DNA of 64,000 nt from Gleimia sp. 6138-11-ORH1 (GTDB lineage Bacteria; Actinomycetota; Actinomycetes; Actinomycetales; Actinomycetaceae). The DNA is taken from assembly GCF_024814355.1 (NCBI RefSeq), contig NZ_JANUXV010000001.1, positions 496,001-560,000 on the forward strand, written 5' to 3'. The notes below the pieces were generated by a model. It worked only from the letters and a program-made list of their open reading frames with translations. It was not told where the DNA came from and ran no database searches. The translations under genes and the position numbers were made by a program. Below, one piece after another: positions 7,110-13,859 of this stretch. Every line of letters begins with the position of its first letter. Position 1 is the stretch's first letter.

Positions 7110-8807
7110 CTATAAGCCAGGTCGCTTACCAATCGTTAAAGTAACCTGCTGCGTACCGGCAAAGAAGTCATTACCCTTATCATCAACAACAATGAAAGCA
7201 GGGAAGTCTTCAACCTCAATCTTCCAAATAGCTTCCATACCCAGCTCAGGGTATTCCAACAACTCTACTTTCTTAATGCAGTCCTGTGCCAGGCGAGCTG
7301 CCGGCCCACCAATAGAACCAAGGTAGAAACCGCCGTACTTCTTACAAGCATCAGTCACCAGCTGAGAACGATTGCCCTTTGCCAGCATAATCATCGAACC
7401 ACCAGCTGCTTGGAACTGATCAACGTAACTGTCCATACGTCCAGCGGTAGTAGGTCCAAAGGAGCCAGACGGCATACCCTCAGGGGTTTTTGCCGGACCA
7501 GCATAGTAAACTGGGTGATCCTTTAAGTACTGTGGCATTTCACCGCCACTATCAAGTAGTTCTTTAATCTTCGCATGCGCAATATCGCGAGCAACCACAA
7601 TCGAACCGGTTAAGGAAACACGGGTCTTAATAGGGTGCTTAGAAAGCTCAGCTAGAATCTCCGGCATGGGTCGGTTAAGGTCAATCTTCACTGCCGCACC
7701 CTTACCGGTGGAAGAAACCCCGCAGGCTTCACCATCTAAATCAGCGTCGGTAATCTCTGGGAGGAATCGGCCCGGATCCTTATCTAATGCCTCCAGGAAA
7801 ACGCCCTCGGGAGTGATCTTTGCCCGCGCCTGACGGTCAGCAGAGCAAGAGACAGCCAAGGCAACAGGCAGGGAAGCACCGTGGCGAGGCAACCGAATCA
7901 CACGCACATCGTGGCAGAAGTATTTGCCGCCAAACTGCGCGCCAATCCCCAGCTGGCGAGTTAGCTTAAGAATCTCATTTTCTAACTCAACATCGCGGAA
8001 ACCGTGACCAGCGATAGTGCCTTCAGTTGGAAGCTCATCTAAATACTTCGCTGACGCGTACTTAGCTGCCTTTAGACACATTTCAGCAGAGGTTCCCCCC
8101 ACAACGAAAGCCAAGTGGTAAGGAGGACAAGCAGCAGTACCCAAAGAACGAATCTTTTCTTCCACGAACTGCATCATCCGAGTGGGATTAAGCAGCGCTT
8201 TAGTCTCTTGGTAAAGGAAAGACTTATTAGCAGAGCCACCGCCTTTAGCCATGAACAAGAAAGAGTACTCCAACTCATGTCCAGGTTTAGTATCTGCCGC
8301 AATCTCAATCTGTGCCGGAAGATTATTGCCGGTGTTGCGCTCATCCCACATGGTGATCGGCGCGTTCTGAGAGTAGCGTAAATTCAATGAAGTGTAGGCA
8401 TCATATACACCGCGGGAGATTGCCTTTTCATCCTGGCTTTCAGATAAAACGTGCTGGCCGCGCTTAGCTGAAACAATCGCAGTACCGGTATCTTGACACA
8501 TGGGGAGCACTCCACCGGAAGAAATAACGGCGTTCTTAAGCAGGTCTAAGGCAACGAACTTATCGTTGTTAGAAGCCTCGGGATCGTCAAGAATGTTGCG
8601 TAACTGCTGCAAATGCGCAGTACGGAGGAAGTGGGAAATATCGTGAATAGCAGTTTCAGTAAGAAGCCGCAACGCTTCAGGAGCAACTTTTAAGAACTTA
8701 CGACCATCTGGGCCGTCCACAACTTCTACACCTTCTTTGGTGAGTAAACGATATTCGGTAGGGTCCTGCTTTAGCGGGAACATATCTTCGTAGAGAAACT
8801 CGGCCAC
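7110..8807 (-). CDS. fumA: Class I (Fe-S dependent) fumarate hydratase
   Basis: It interconverts fumarate and malate. The 565-residue length and the fused alpha-beta layout match the FumA/FumB type of class I fumarase. The three Cys ligands of the oxygen-labile 4Fe-4S cluster are visible in [15 protein letters not shown] and [17 protein letters not shown] and GGPAARLAQ are further family hallmarks. The C-terminal beta domain begins around [10 protein letters not shown] and includes [11 protein letters not shown]. The start is the GTG at 8807, preceded by AAAAGGAG at a spacing of 5 nt. An iron-sulphur fumarase rather than the stable class II FumC fits a microaerophilic or anaerobic lifestyle. 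The gene stands alone between terminators. Confidence 0.95.
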
Positions 8808-9253
8808 TTTGGCTCCTTTTCAGTAATTTTCCACTATGCCCTCAGGATAATCCGTCTGCTTTGCAAATCGGTTTGCTTTAGTCCTAGAGCCCAGGTTTTA
8901 TGCGAAATTATGAGGGTTTTTCACAGTAAAATGGCGGGGCGCAGCGGGGGGATTTATCCAGAACTGAAGATTAATAGGTTACGGCGGAGTTTCTTAAATC
9001 GAAAAAGGTAAGAAAACCGGTTGCAAGCCGAAGCCTTCCTCGGTAGGGGAGAGATGAAAAAATCGGCTCCCGCTTACCCTTGTGTAAACATCTACATTGT
9101 GGGGGTAGCTCAGCGGTTGTAAATGCGTTAAAGAATAAACCTAGCTAAACTAAAAACAGTTGAAATGAGGAAACTAATATAGCTTCATTGCCTCAGCGAG
9201 GGCTTTGAAATAGGTTAGTTTAGCTCACCTTCCCGAACGACAAAGGTTGTTAA
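8808..9253. other. Intergenic region between divergent fumarase and Hsp90-like genes
   Basis: No gene is visible. The fumarase Shine-Dalgarno lies at its left end and AAAGG at 9242-9246 serves the Hsp90-like GTG start. An 11-bp inverted repeat, AGCTAAACTAA (9143-9153) and TTAGTTTAGCT (9215-9225), flanks 61 nt and could be an operator pair or a long stem. The segment 9101-9117 resembles the 5' end of a tRNA, but no anticodon or T arm follows. Confidence 0.5.
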
Positions 9254-11065
9254 GTGTCAAATCGTTTTCAAGTTAATCTCACCGGCTTAGTTGAAGTGCT
9301 CTCACGTAACCTCTATTCAGGGCCGAAAGTCTTTGTAAGAGAGCTACTCCAAAATGGGTTTGACGCAATCACAGCAAGGCAAAAGCTTGACCCGAATTGC
9401 GCCGCGCAAATTAGTTTCCGCAGTTATGGCGATAAGAAACTGGTGGTTTCCGACACGGGGATTGGTTTAACTTTAGAACAGGCGAAAGACCTGCTTGCCT
9501 CAATTGGGGCCACTTCTAAGCGCGATGAGTTAGGGTTGGCGCGGACAGAGTTTATCGGTCAGTTTGGGATTGGGTTGCTTTCTTGTTTCATGGTGACTCA
9601 GACGATTGTGGTTTATTCGCAGAATGCGGAAACTGTTGGGGCGCCGATTATCTGTTGGAAGGGTTATGGTGACGGCACTTGGGACGTTTCTGTTGTTTCT
9701 GAAGCGGAAGTGCCCGCAGAATTTAATGGCCCGGGTACTACCATTATTTTAGAAGCGACCGGCGCCGAGCCGCTTTTTAATAAAACAGCGTTGGTTAATT
9801 TAGTTTTGGAATACGGGGCTCATTTACCTGTTTCGATTACGGTTGCTGATGAGATCAGCAGTGAACAGTTAGGAGCTGCAGCTTTTCCTTGGGAACTTGA
9901 GTTAATCGAGCAGGAAAAATGGTGTTCTGCTAACTTTGGTTTCCACCCGTTTGCGAAAATTCCCCTGCAGTTGGGTAGTTCCCAAACGGTGGGCATGGCC
10001 TTTGTCCTTCCCGAGGGCGCTCACCCAGGCCAGTCTTTAAAACATCATGTCTATGTGCAAAATATGCTGGTGTCTAAAACGGTTACTAACCTGGTGCCAG
10101 ATTGGGCGTATTTTGTGCGGGTTGTAGTAGATTCCAAATTTTTGAAGCCAACTGCTTCCAGAGAGAGCTTATTTGATGATGAGCTGTTAGAGGAAGTGAA
10201 AGAAAGCATTGGGGAAACGGTACGGGGTTGGTTAGTTAATCTTTCTAATCAAGATATGGAAAAGTTCGTTAAATTTATGCGAGCTCATATTGTGGGGATG
10301 AAAGCACTTTCTGTACACGATCAGCAAACCAGGGAGATGCTGAAATCTTCGATTCCCTATGAAACTACTTTAGGTTTTTTCACGTTAGAAGAGATTATTA
10401 ACCGCACTAACGCGATTATTTATACACAGACTAAAGATGATTTCCGCGCAATCGAAGCGGTTGCCGCTGCCCAGGAGATTCTGGTGATAAATGGTGGCTA
10501 CGCTTTTGATGAGCAAGTCTTTGCGCAGCTAAAATTAGACTATCCGCAAGTTGAGGTACGGGAAGTAAAAGTATCCGAAATTTTAGCGGCTTTAGAGTCA
10601 CTTCCTGTGACGGAAGAAATTAATTTCATTACTTTCTTAGAGTATGCTTCGCAGGCTTTAGCTTCACAAAAAGTGGATGTGGTGATTCGTAATTTCTTAC
10701 CGGCTAGCTTACCGATGGTTTATTTACCGCAACCGGGTGGAGCAGGTCGAGAGATTGAAAAGAAAGCGCAAGCCCAAGCTACCGGCGCTTTTGCCGGGTT
10801 AATTGGGCATATAGCTGCGGCTGCGCCGGCTGAGTCTCGTTCTCAGGTTGTATTTAATGGGCAGTCAAGTGTAGTTAATCAACTGGCTAACCTAGCTGAT
10901 CCCCAGACCATAGAATTGGCAGTGAGAGGTTTCTTTGTCCAGGCGATTCTAAACGGACACCATCCAATGACACCGGAAGTTAAACAGTGGTCTACACAAG
11001 TTTTCGCGGAATTAATATCGCGGCAACTTACAGCTAATCGTAAAAGTGATGAAGAGAGGAACTGA
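9254..11065 (+). CDS. Hsp90-family (HtpG-like) chaperone ATPase
   Basis: The 603-residue protein has the full Hsp90 plan. Residues 1 to about 210 form the GHKL ATPase with Glu30 and Asn34 (RELLQNGFDAI), Asp67 (SDTGIGL) and the lid GQFGIGLLSCF. A middle domain ends with VYVQNMLVSKTV and SRESLF, where Arg303 corresponds to the gamma-phosphate-sensing Arg. A C-terminal dimerisation-like domain contains NGQSSVVNQLANL and a helical end. It is shorter than HtpG (about 630) and diverged from it, belonging to the 'HSP90 family protein' group of actinobacteria. The GTG start has AAAGG 7 nt upstream. The TPR gene follows after 2 nt, so the two are co-translated; the acidic tail (KSDEERN) lacks the eukaryotic MEEVD. 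Clients are unknown. Confidence 0.85.
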   Translation: MSNRFQVNLTGLVEVLSRNLYSGPKVFVRELLQNGFDAITARQKLDPNCAAQISFRSYGDKKLVVSDTGIGLTLEQAKDLLASIGATSKRDELGLARTEFIGQFGIGLLSCFMVTQTIVVYSQNAETVGAPIICWKGYGDGTWDVSVVSEAEVPAEFNGPGTTIILEATGAEPLFNKTALVNLVLEYGAHLPVSITVADEISSEQLGAAAFPWELELIEQEKWCSANFGFHPFAKIPLQLGSSQTVGMAFVLPEGAHPGQSLKHHVYVQNMLVSKTVTNLVPDWAYFVRVVVDSKFLKPTASRESLFDDELLEEVKESIGETVRGWLVNLSNQDMEKFVKFMRAHIVGMKALSVHDQQTREMLKSSIPYETTLGFFTLEEIINRTNAIIYTQTKDDFRAIEAVAAAQEILVINGGYAFDEQVFAQLKLDYPQVEVREVKVSEILAALESLPVTEEINFITFLEYASQALASQKVDVVIRNFLPASLPMVYLPQPGGAGREIEKKAQAQATGAFAGLIGHIAAAAPAESRSQVVFNGQSSVVNQLANLADPQTIELAVRGFFVQAILNGHHPMTPEVKQWSTQVFAELISRQLTANRKSDEERN

Positions 11066-11067
11066 CA

Positions 11068-13725
11068 ATGACTTCACGGGAAGAGCTCCATCAACTGATG
11101 GATGAAGCTGCGAATACTCCTCCGGGGAAAACTCATAACGACCTGTGGGCTAAAGCGGCAGAACTAGCTGAGGCTGGAGGGTTCGAAGAAGAAGCAGTGA
11201 TTAGCTATGTTCATCTGGTAAATGGCTATGCTACTGGGGGGCAGGCTACTAAAGTAATTGCGCCTTTTATATGGTGTGACCAGAAAATTAAGGAACGTCC
11301 GGATTTATTTGGGGGCGAAATTGGGTTCTCTCACGCATGGCATTACAAGTATGTGATTGGGGCAGTGCGTGCAGTTCCTTCCGTGCCGGTGGAGCAATGC
11401 GAGAGCCTCCTTGAAGAAATGCGTAAGCACTATACGCAACTGGGGGACGGACTTCGCGCCTACTACATTCGTAAGTTCCTTTTTGCCCGCGACTGGGGGA
11501 CTAAAGCTGAAGCAGAGGAAGCTTTCAATCAGTGGCGTACAGCTAATGATTCAGAATTATCTGATTGTCCTAGCTGCGACCCCAGTTATGAGGTTGCCTA
11601 TTACAGTCGGCAGGGTAACTGGGCTAAAGCCGTAGAAATAGGGGAAGCTGCCCTGGCACGCCAAAATGAGAATACCTGCGATTCTCAACCTGAAGCGCTC
11701 CTTACCGAGATGATGGAGCCTTGGTCCCGGGTGGGTAATGATACTTCAGCGTGGAGTGCACACACGCGCGCCTATCGGCGTTACCAAGAGGGCGCACGCT
11801 ATTTGGAAGATATACCTGCGCACCTGCACTTCCTATTTTTATCGGGGATGGCGGGACGGCCTCAGCGTTTAGAAAGAGGCTTGCGGATCCTTTTACGTCA
11901 CCTTCCTTGGTGGCCAGAAGCTAATACCCCAATCGTGCTTCTCAACCTGGCTGTTGAGGGCGCTTTACTATTTAGCACTCTCTTAGATAATCCTTCGCAG
12001 AAACTGAACCTAACCTTACCTGGTGAAGATTTGGTGTGGTACCCCTGCGAAACTCTACACAATCCAACCGTACAAGAAGCGTATGACTGGATGCGTAAAC
12101 TAGCTTTAGGAATAGCAAGCCAGTTTGATGAGCGTCCCGGGTTGAAGTTTAAACGGTATGTGGAAGCGATTGAACGTCGTTTAGAACCTACCTTATTAGA
12201 AATAAAAGCCCCCGAAGTAGATGTCTTAGATGTTTCAGGACTATATACTCCAGATGAATCTAACTATCAGGTAAAAGCCGAAAAACCGGCAGAAACTGTT
12301 GAAGGGCAGTCTTTTGCAGTGCCTAATCGGGAAGAAAGTGTAGAAACGAAGTCCATCGAATACACTCCGATTACGCTAGATACCAGTTGGCAAAACCTTT
12401 CGATTAGCCAACTATTCCAAGCGGTAGTAACCGGCTTTGGGACATTTAGCTCCGCTTATACGTATTTGTATCATCGTTTATTCGACCCCGCGGCTGAACT
12501 TCCTTCACATCAAGAATTAACTATTTTTGCTACCAACGAAGAAGAAGCCGCCACTATCAGCGAGTTTTGGGATACGATTGTTGAAAACCGCTATACGCCG
12601 TGGAAATTCCCAGGTGAGTTCTGTGCAATCCCCGACCCGCAAAGTCCTGAGGTAAAGGTAATTCCCCATTTGGTGGAAGCCAGTAAAGCAATTAAAGCAC
12701 ATGATTTTTCAGTGGCAGTTGCAGCAGCTAAAGCAGCTATGCAGGTTCCGGATATTTCCGATGCGCTGGGAATCCGCCTCTATGGGCTAGATACCCTTGG
12801 ATTTGCCTATGCTTCTTTAGATAAATATGAGGAAGCGATCCAAGCCTACCGGCAGGCCCTTAACCTATACGCCGCATTAGGGGTTGCTTCACAACAAGCT
12901 CTAATGGGTTGGAAGCTCTCATACGTACTCATCAGTGCTCGCCGCAACGATGAGGCAATTGAAGTATTGCAAAGTTCCGTTGATGTGGGAGCTAACATTC
13001 TCCCAGCTGAACTTGAAGCAAGATTAAGAACCGAGTTGGCTGAGCAATACACGAAGGCCAAGCTCTTACACAGTGCCCTAAGAGAATTACTTAAGGCTTA
13101 CCAGCTTCACACCAACGCAGATGAGAAGTTTGAAGTAGCGAAGAAAATAGTGGATACGGCAGTTAATGAGGGCGAATTCCAGATTGCTACTGAATACCAG
13201 TTTAAGATTTTAGAGGATCGAAAAACTCGGGTGGTGTATCCCCTAAATCACCAAACTAAACTGTCCCATCGAGATTACGCCGCGGAAATATTCAATGCGG
13301 CCCGTCGTTTAGTTGAACGTCCGGGAATAATCAGTGAATCTGAAGCTGCACAGGCCCGTGAACTACTGGAAACTGGTATAAAAATCTTTGCCCAGTTGAG
13401 TGAACTGGAAGGCAGTGACCCAGAACGGGATGTTGCCGAGCTCATTATTGAATACCACCGCGTTATTGGTGCGTGTTATTCGACTTCAGAAACCGAACAA
13501 AAATTGCAGCAGGCTTTGGATATTATGAAAGACCATCAGGTAATGCATGCTGTGGGAATGGGGCTTTTAGCGCTTAGTCTAATCGCGGAAAAAGCGGGGG
13601 ACTATGAGAAGGCGAACGAAACTCTAAATGAGCTACTTTCTTTAGAGGGTAAGCATAGAGAGATTGAAGCAAATATTTTTGGGTATGCACACTATCTAAA
13701 AGAGATACTAAACTCGGATAATTAA
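11068..13725 (+). CDS. Large TPR-repeat protein, partner of the Hsp90-like ATPase
   Basis: I recognise only repeat architecture in this 885-residue soluble protein. Helical pairs with TPR spacing are clear around residues 530-690 (DALGIRLYGLDTLGFAYASLDKYEEAIQAYRQAL and the next units), at about 20-60, and again near the C-terminus (AVGMGLLALSLIAEKAGDYEKANETLNELL). Residues about 165-215 contain a Cys pair (DCPSCDPS). A Pro/Glu-rich linker lies near residues 395-435. There is no signal peptide or membrane helix. It starts 2 nt after the Hsp90-like stop, with GAGAGGAAC as its ribosome binding site. TPR proteins are classic Hsp90 co-chaperones in eukaryotes, so a scaffold or client-recruiting role is inferred. 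Confidence 0.75.
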   Translation: MTSREELHQLMDEAANTPPGKTHNDLWAKAAELAEAGGFEEEAVISYVHLVNGYATGGQATKVIAPFIWCDQKIKERPDLFGGEIGFSHAWHYKYVIGAVRAVPSVPVEQCESLLEEMRKHYTQLGDGLRAYYIRKFLFARDWGTKAEAEEAFNQWRTANDSELSDCPSCDPSYEVAYYSRQGNWAKAVEIGEAALARQNENTCDSQPEALLTEMMEPWSRVGNDTSAWSAHTRAYRRYQEGARYLEDIPAHLHFLFLSGMAGRPQRLERGLRILLRHLPWWPEANTPIVLLNLAVEGALLFSTLLDNPSQKLNLTLPGEDLVWYPCETLHNPTVQEAYDWMRKLALGIASQFDERPGLKFKRYVEAIERRLEPTLLEIKAPEVDVLDVSGLYTPDESNYQVKAEKPAETVEGQSFAVPNREESVETKSIEYTPITLDTSWQNLSISQLFQAVVTGFGTFSSAYTYLYHRLFDPAAELPSHQELTIFATNEEEAATISEFWDTIVENRYTPWKFPGEFCAIPDPQSPEVKVIPHLVEASKAIKAHDFSVAVAAAKAAMQVPDISDALGIRLYGLDTLGFAYASLDKYEEAIQAYRQALNLYAALGVASQQALMGWKLSYVLISARRNDEAIEVLQSSVDVGANILPAELEARLRTELAEQYTKAKLLHSALRELLKAYQLHTNADEKFEVAKKIVDTAVNEGEFQIATEYQFKILEDRKTRVVYPLNHQTKLSHRDYAAEIFNAARRLVERPGIISESEAAQARELLETGIKIFAQLSELEGSDPERDVAELIIEYHRVIGACYSTSETEQKLQQALDIMKDHQVMHAVGMGLLALSLIAEKAGDYEKANETLNELLSLEGKHREIEANIFGYAHYLKEILNSDN

Positions 13726-13731
13726 GTTTTA

Positions 13732-13768
13732 CGCTCACATCAGTGGAAGAAAACCGCTGATGTGAGCG
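13732..13768. terminator. Inverted repeat after the TPR gene
   Basis: A 15-bp stem with one wobble (CGCTCACATCAGTGG, 13732-13746, and CCGCTGATGTGAGCG, 13754-13768) has a 7-nt loop. It is followed by A rather than T residues in the plus direction, so it is not a textbook terminator, but its position between the TPR gene and the converging tRNA fits one. Confidence 0.5.
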
Positions 13769-13785
13769 AAAAACGGGTAAAAAAG

Positions 13786-13859
13786 TACCCCGGGTGAGAC
13801 TCGAACTCACAACGAGCCGGGTTTGAGCCGACTGCCTCTGCCAATTGGGCTACCGGGGC
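13786..13859 (-). tRNA. tRNA with anticodon CAA (Leu-like) and a short variable loop
   Basis: The minus strand folds into a complete cloverleaf of 74 nt. The acceptor is GCCCCGG/CCGGGGT with G1:U72, and the D arm is GCC/GGC with loop AATTGG. The anticodon stem is GTCGG/CCGGC with loop CTCAAAC (anticodon CAA). The variable loop is only TCGTT, the T stem is GTGAG/CTCAC with TTCGAGT, and the discriminator is A. CCA is not encoded; CTTTTTT follows. A CAA anticodon reads the Leu codon UUG, yet bacterial tRNA-Leu normally has a long extra arm. The amino acid identity is therefore uncertain. Confidence 0.88.

Follow-up and report, generated by a model that had tools for sequence, protein, structure and literature searches.

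TPR co-chaperones of Hsp90 are treated as a eukaryotic feature. In a 64,000-nucleotide stretch of the genome of Gleimia sp. 6138-11-ORH1, referred to here as the window, a gene for an Hsp90-family protein is followed by a gene for a large TPR protein, and an earlier note on this sequence had proposed that the two might form a minimal bacterial chaperone/co-chaperone system. The question raised by the locus is whether a bacterial Hsp90 can have a TPR partner of its own and, if so, what kind of partnership this would be.

The hsp90-TPR locus and its two proteins

Both open reading frames were found at the positions given for them in the earlier note, on the same strand and with a gap of 2 nt between them, and the pair lies, as described there, between a fumarase gene upstream and a tRNA gene downstream, both in the opposite orientation (Table 1). 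The palindrome that separates the TPR gene from the tRNA gene is perfect, with 12-nt arms at 13732-13743 and 13757-13768, and judging from its sequence it is a probable bidirectional terminator. Because of the 2-nt gap and this downstream palindrome, hsp90 and the TPR gene are predicted to be transcribed as one unit. Neither CIRCE nor HAIR elements were found near the operon, and heat-shock control through either of them was rejected. The leader of hsp90 contains a perfect 11-nt inverted repeat (9143-9153/9215-9225, arms 61 nt apart), possibly a regulatory site or an RNA stem, and a segment at 9101-9127, GGGGGTAGCTCAGCGGTTGTAAATGCG, that resembles the 5′ half of a tRNA. Neither ARAGORN nor Rfam calls this segment; it may be a decayed tRNA or a scar left by integration. 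The class I fumarase is encoded in three of 11 genomes of the genus, the same three that have the Hsp90-TPR pair, and is probably a subclade marker.

Table 1. Features of the hsp90-TPR locus, numbered from the first nucleotide of the window.
Feature	Position	Strand	Remarks
Class I fumarase, upstream of hsp90	7110-8807	-	
hsp90 leader	8808-9253	+	446 nt
hsp90 (non-canonical Hsp90, NF010683 "HSP90 family protein")	9254-11065	+	GTG start, 603 aa
TPR partner gene	11068-13725	+	ATG start, 885 aa, 2 nt past hsp90
TPR-N, conserved N-terminal helical domain (~370 aa) by which the partner family is defined	11068-12177	+	Alignment, family profile searches
C167-x2-C170 motif (SDCPSCD), with the first two residues of the Cys triad	11566-11577	+	Alignment
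C204, which completes the Cys triad	11677-11679	+	Alignment
C-terminal TPR superhelix, about residues 530-885	12655-13722	+	TPR_8, pLDDT, fold matches
Perfect palindrome separating the TPR gene from tRNA-Leu; probable bidirectional terminator	13732-13768	.	Sequence
tRNA-Leu(CAA), downstream of the TPR gene	13785-13859	-	

The Hsp90 of the window contains a complete Bergerat ATP site, composed of E30, N34, D67 and a GxxGxG motif at residues 102-107 (G102/G105/G107). Across 19 aligned members these residues are invariant or near-invariant, and the catalytic arginine of the middle domain (R303, within PTASRES) is invariant. The N-M-C architecture is complete as well, since residues 1-598 align with positions 4-602 of the 604 in profile NF010683 and with positions 3-598 of the 614 in the HtpG profile. 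These catalytic residues and the full-length match bear out the earlier description of a complete Hsp90-family ATPase. A score of 590 bits against NF010683 (curated cutoff 455) makes the protein a member of that family, and its score against the canonical HtpG profile NF003555 is 150.6 bits, below the cutoff of 371. The TPR-linked Hsp90s, along with one borderline relative, are split from canonical actinobacterial HtpG by a branch with 100/100 support in a maximum-likelihood tree; on the strength of this separate clade and of the sub-cutoff score, a mis-assigned canonical HtpG was rejected. An AlphaFold2 model based on two aligned sequences (mean pLDDT 37) has its best PDB matches among TRAP1, Hsp90 and HtpG, with low TM-scores. 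The earlier note had also raised the matter of a canonical htpG elsewhere in the genome: neither this gene nor any other Hsp90 was found in the assembly (1.67 Mb, 97.5% complete), and the Hsp90 of the window is the sole one.

Canonical HtpG shares with this protein the ATP-site residues, the three-domain length and, as predicted, the Hsp90 fold family, but belongs to a separate clade. The family NF010683/PRK14083 is annotated from sequence only, and its library description includes neither TPR-N nor YbjN partners. Chen et al. (2006; PMC1525184) described HTPG Group C, a second, divergent lineage of HtpG that occurs in Actinobacteria and Firmicutes and includes the second of the two copies in Streptomyces coelicolor; the consulted passages do not mention gene partners. 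Going by this published description, Group C is probably the same lineage as the TPR-linked Hsp90s.

The partner had been described as an 885-residue TPR protein with no other known domain, which stands for its C-terminal half. Pfam TPR_8 matches there with 31.6 bits (curated cutoff 25.7), and in an AlphaFold2 model built on two aligned sequences (the window protein and one relative; mean pLDDT 51) helical hairpins are confidently predicted only from residue ~540 onward, with pLDDT mostly 70-90. The fold matches of this half are TPR superhelices, among them LGN/Pins, consensus TPR and, from bacteria, the peptide sensors NprR and Rap. The N-terminal ~370 residues, however, form a separate conserved domain, TPR-N, for which no named domain was found in Pfam or NCBIfam. 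The partner in Paenibacillus (353 aa) and the two tandem partners in Listeria (324 and 320 aa) consist of barely more than TPR-N. Positions of TPR-N conserved across phyla include a cysteine triad (C-x2-C...C) and also W/K/FD. The triad is retained in all copies checked that lie directly downstream of Hsp90; among the copies away from Hsp90, it is lost in L072, L073 and L134_13007 and retained in L093, L125, L126 and L135.

Co-occurrence of Hsp90 and TPR-N

Among 213 genomes of Actinomycetaceae, this Hsp90 was identified in 40, and TPR-N is present in the same cluster in all of them; 31 genomes have TPR-N only, none has Hsp90 only and 142 have neither (Fisher p = 4e-24, a value that is only indicative, the genomes of one family being related). 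The two genes are directly adjacent in 38 of the 40 loci, and a pair of YbjN genes lies between them in the other two (G590 and G594). According to match coordinates, they are at most 200 nt apart in 36 of the 40 genomes; in G475 they abut once the full open reading frame is used, and the gap of 360 nt in G512 comes from an incomplete profile match and is probably overestimated.

The association extends beyond the family. In 396 genomes of Actinomycetota, one fixed sample drawn evenly across the phylum, TPR-N is located directly downstream in 13 of 13 strong Hsp90 loci, and the reciprocal search of the same genomes with a TPR-N profile recovered 15 strong loci, 13 of them beside Hsp90 (Fisher p = 1e-18). 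The same pair occurs in the Bacillota genera Listeria and Paenibacillus and on the human fecal contig MT837560. Seven of 72,556 plasmid-collection records contain TPR-N: six are the six best Hsp90 matches (from Streptomyces, Paenibacillus and Listeria), and the seventh is a copy from Actinomyces oris without Hsp90. The spacing between the two genes is mostly between -8 and +25 nt. These results contradict the possibility, considered in the earlier note, that homologues of the two genes are rarely adjacent in other genomes; in Actinomycetaceae, Streptomyces and others, the pairing is essentially obligate for Hsp90s of the NF010683 type.

At 21 canonical htpG loci compared, no TPR-N was found; flanks of 1.5 kb were covered at 18 of these, and three, from the same set of genomes, were read again with wider flanks. 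Setting aside antisense shadow ORFs and a few generic dehydrogenase/transporter matches at non-corresponding positions, no flanking genes are common to different genera, and general synteny was rejected on this ground as the source of the pairing. The distance matrices of Hsp90 and TPR-N are correlated with r = 0.957 (reached in 0 of 2000 permutations), a value to which species relatedness contributes, and 13 of 19 splits are in common. Independent of relatedness is the behavior of paralogues: in two Streptomyces genomes that each carry two pairs, every TPR protein tracks its own Hsp90 paralogue and not the genome. This conserved pairing suggests that some bacterial Hsp90s have dedicated partner proteins.

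Additional genes accompany the pair in some lineages. A SUKH (SMI1/KNR4) gene follows Hsp90 and two TPR-N genes on the same strand in Listeria (L090:11870-12616). In Streptomyces (L079, L080, L082, L083 and L092), a conserved protein of ~330 aa is encoded directly upstream of one Hsp90-TPR type; it is probably helical and is a possible further subunit. Its identification as YbjN is unsupported, given that the two sequences scanned had no significant Pfam match and that the sequence looks helical.

Other combinations of Hsp90-like and TPR proteins were observed as well. Escherichia coli FDAARGOS_144 (L130:7038-11181) and Salmonella Infantis (L129:4962-9109) encode a second, divergent Hsp90-like protein of about 611 aa, which in Salmonella scores 286 bits against NF010683; its gene is followed after 1-2 nt by that of a 769-aa protein with weak TPR matches and conserved cysteines of its own. 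This partner is not detectably TPR-N. The E. coli pair lies between fdhD and yiiG; 149 of 5426 E. coli genomes carry it. In G379 (L086:7704-10369), a borderline NF010683 Hsp90 lacks TPR-N, and a different TPR protein of up to 328 aa overlaps or abuts its end. Homology of the Salmonella and G379 TPR proteins to TPR-N is not claimed, the hhalign probability being about 1% or less. Plasmid ABRG53a of Pseudanabaena (L128:4213-9795) encodes an Hsp90-family protein of 877 aa whose C-terminal part has a weak TIR-like match; beside its gene are a TPR gene, a hypothetical gene and a TIR gene that is strongly ThsB-like. The locus is possibly an Hsp90-based defence cluster.

YbjN genes and TPR-N copies without Hsp90

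One or two YbjN genes (PF10722) lie upstream of hsp90 in all six other Actinomycetaceae loci first examined, the sister locus L036 excepted, and YbjN is part of the cluster in at least 15 of the 40 loci of the family. YbjN belongs to the TY-chaperone superfamily and is related to type III secretion chaperones (PMC9503650). In the same-genus genome G005, two YbjN genes occupy the position of the hsp90 leader, where no YbjN remnants were found in the window. YbjN is absent from the clusters of the window and of L036, and the four YbjN matches in the window genome are all located away from the Hsp90-TPR cluster. Because relatives often carry YbjN in the cluster and the window retains no trace of it there, the pair of the window is a reduced form. 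The minimal two-gene system of the earlier note is therefore not primitive, YbjN genes having been lost in the lineage of the window. In G259, TPR-N is even fused to YbjN in a single 550-aa protein, encoded behind another YbjN gene. The cluster of G565 (L134:4171-15787) is expanded: a single strand carries Hsp90 once, YbjN twice and TPR-N three times, and the Cys triad is lost in the TPR-N copy that lies beyond the YbjN pair.

TPR-N without this Hsp90 occurs in about 31 of the 213 family genomes, in some of them with YbjN. Both YbjN and TPR-N are present without Hsp90 in A. oris (L093) and G451, and TPR-N is likewise without Hsp90 in G226 and G259. An intact TPR-N in G498 lies behind a truncated Hsp90 remnant of 230 aa, and therefore at least one orphan TPR-N arose by decay of Hsp90. 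The existence of TPR-N families without Hsp90 implies some role of TPR-N that is independent of this Hsp90. The word "dedicated" in the earlier note thus applies in one direction: Hsp90 never occurs without TPR-N (40 of 40), but TPR-N does occur without Hsp90.

Possible roles of the pair

We consider it rather probable that the two proteins constitute a bacterial Hsp90 machine in which the obligate TPR protein serves as adaptor or co-chaperone; physical binding, the adaptor role and client handling are what we infer for this machine. Such a partnership would resemble that of eukaryotic Hsp90 with TPR co-chaperones like Hop/Sti1, FKBP51/52 and Cpr6, but differs in that the partner in the window has an unrelated N-terminal domain with a Cys triad and that its Hsp90, which ends in KSDEERN, has no MEEVD tail. 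No MEEVD-like tail or other common motif was found among 22 Hsp90 tails compared, and because the tails are not conserved a eukaryote-like tail contact is excluded; any contact must differ from the MEEVD type, as the earlier note had anticipated. Instead, TPR-N would most likely dock on the body of Hsp90, and the C-terminal TPR superhelix would present or capture clients, either proteins or peptides. Relatives keep the ancestral form, in which small YbjN-type chaperones might act in the same pathway, holding client segments before or after the action of Hsp90. The one-way dependence of Hsp90 on TPR-N fits a requirement for TPR-N in the task of Hsp90. A more elaborate version, in which a metal- or thiol-binding Cys triad gates this widespread machine with its obligate, tail-independent TPR co-chaperone and YbjN proteins cooperate with it, is put forward tentatively and is on balance doubtful.

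The same asymmetry is accounted for by the main rival explanation, which we regard as rather unlikely: the TPR protein could be a dedicated client, a large metastable sensor or scaffold that does the work in the cell and that Hsp90 matures or holds. With the TPR protein as the functional end, TPR-N would be expected to occur without Hsp90 and the reverse would not, as seen in the family; the Hsp90 remnant in G498 and the presence of the peptide sensors Rap and NprR among the best fold matches of the C-terminal half also agree with this. However, a client is expected to vary more than a contact surface, and TPR-N has an invariant Cys triad and conserved W/K/FD across phyla. Lower still is the probability that adjacency reflects nothing but co-regulation of two proteins that act in one pathway without binding each other. 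Operon neighbors need not interact, and YbjN genes can sit between Hsp90 and TPR-N, but obligate pairing across phyla with changing flanks exceeds the usual needs of co-regulation, and the mostly overlapping or near-zero spacing and the paralogue-specific co-inheritance also argue against this explanation.

It is improbable, too, that the pair serves in stress or conflict (anti-phage or anti-toxin), with Hsp90 and TY-type chaperones activating or restraining an effector. Its patchy distribution (40/213 in the family and 3/11 in the genus) would suit such a role, as would the report of the superfamily of YbjN from ADP-ribose conflict systems (PMC9503650) and the TIR-like match and gene neighbors of the Pseudanabaena Hsp90 relative. 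Nevertheless, the pair in the window carries no effector domain, PADLOC gives weak matches to generic ATPases only, on which a known defence system was rejected, phage association is limited to contig fragments, and the loci are at ordinary chromosomal sites. Phage or plasmid cargo was also rejected: viral contigs yield only three partial Hsp90-like matches, and most matches in the phage collection come from short contigs or are unrelated HtpG.

As of 2014, E. coli HtpG had no identified co-chaperone (PMC4428384), and a Hop orthologue is missing from bacteria (PMC7688965). The open literature searched yielded no description of the cluster, and on this scope the novelty of the system is provisional; it is apparently an undescribed conserved partner system of a known chaperone family.

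Since an Hsp90 lineage in two phyla is, in the genomes examined, never without a large TPR protein, the origin of the TPR partners of Hsp90 becomes testable in bacteria. The partners in Listeria and Paenibacillus (324-353 aa) are of a size suited to biochemistry, and standard genetics would allow deletion of the related pair in E. coli. If the proposed machine is real, bacteria would have recruited TPR partners to Hsp90 more than once, given the unrelated Hsp90-TPR pairs of Enterobacteriaceae and cyanobacteria.
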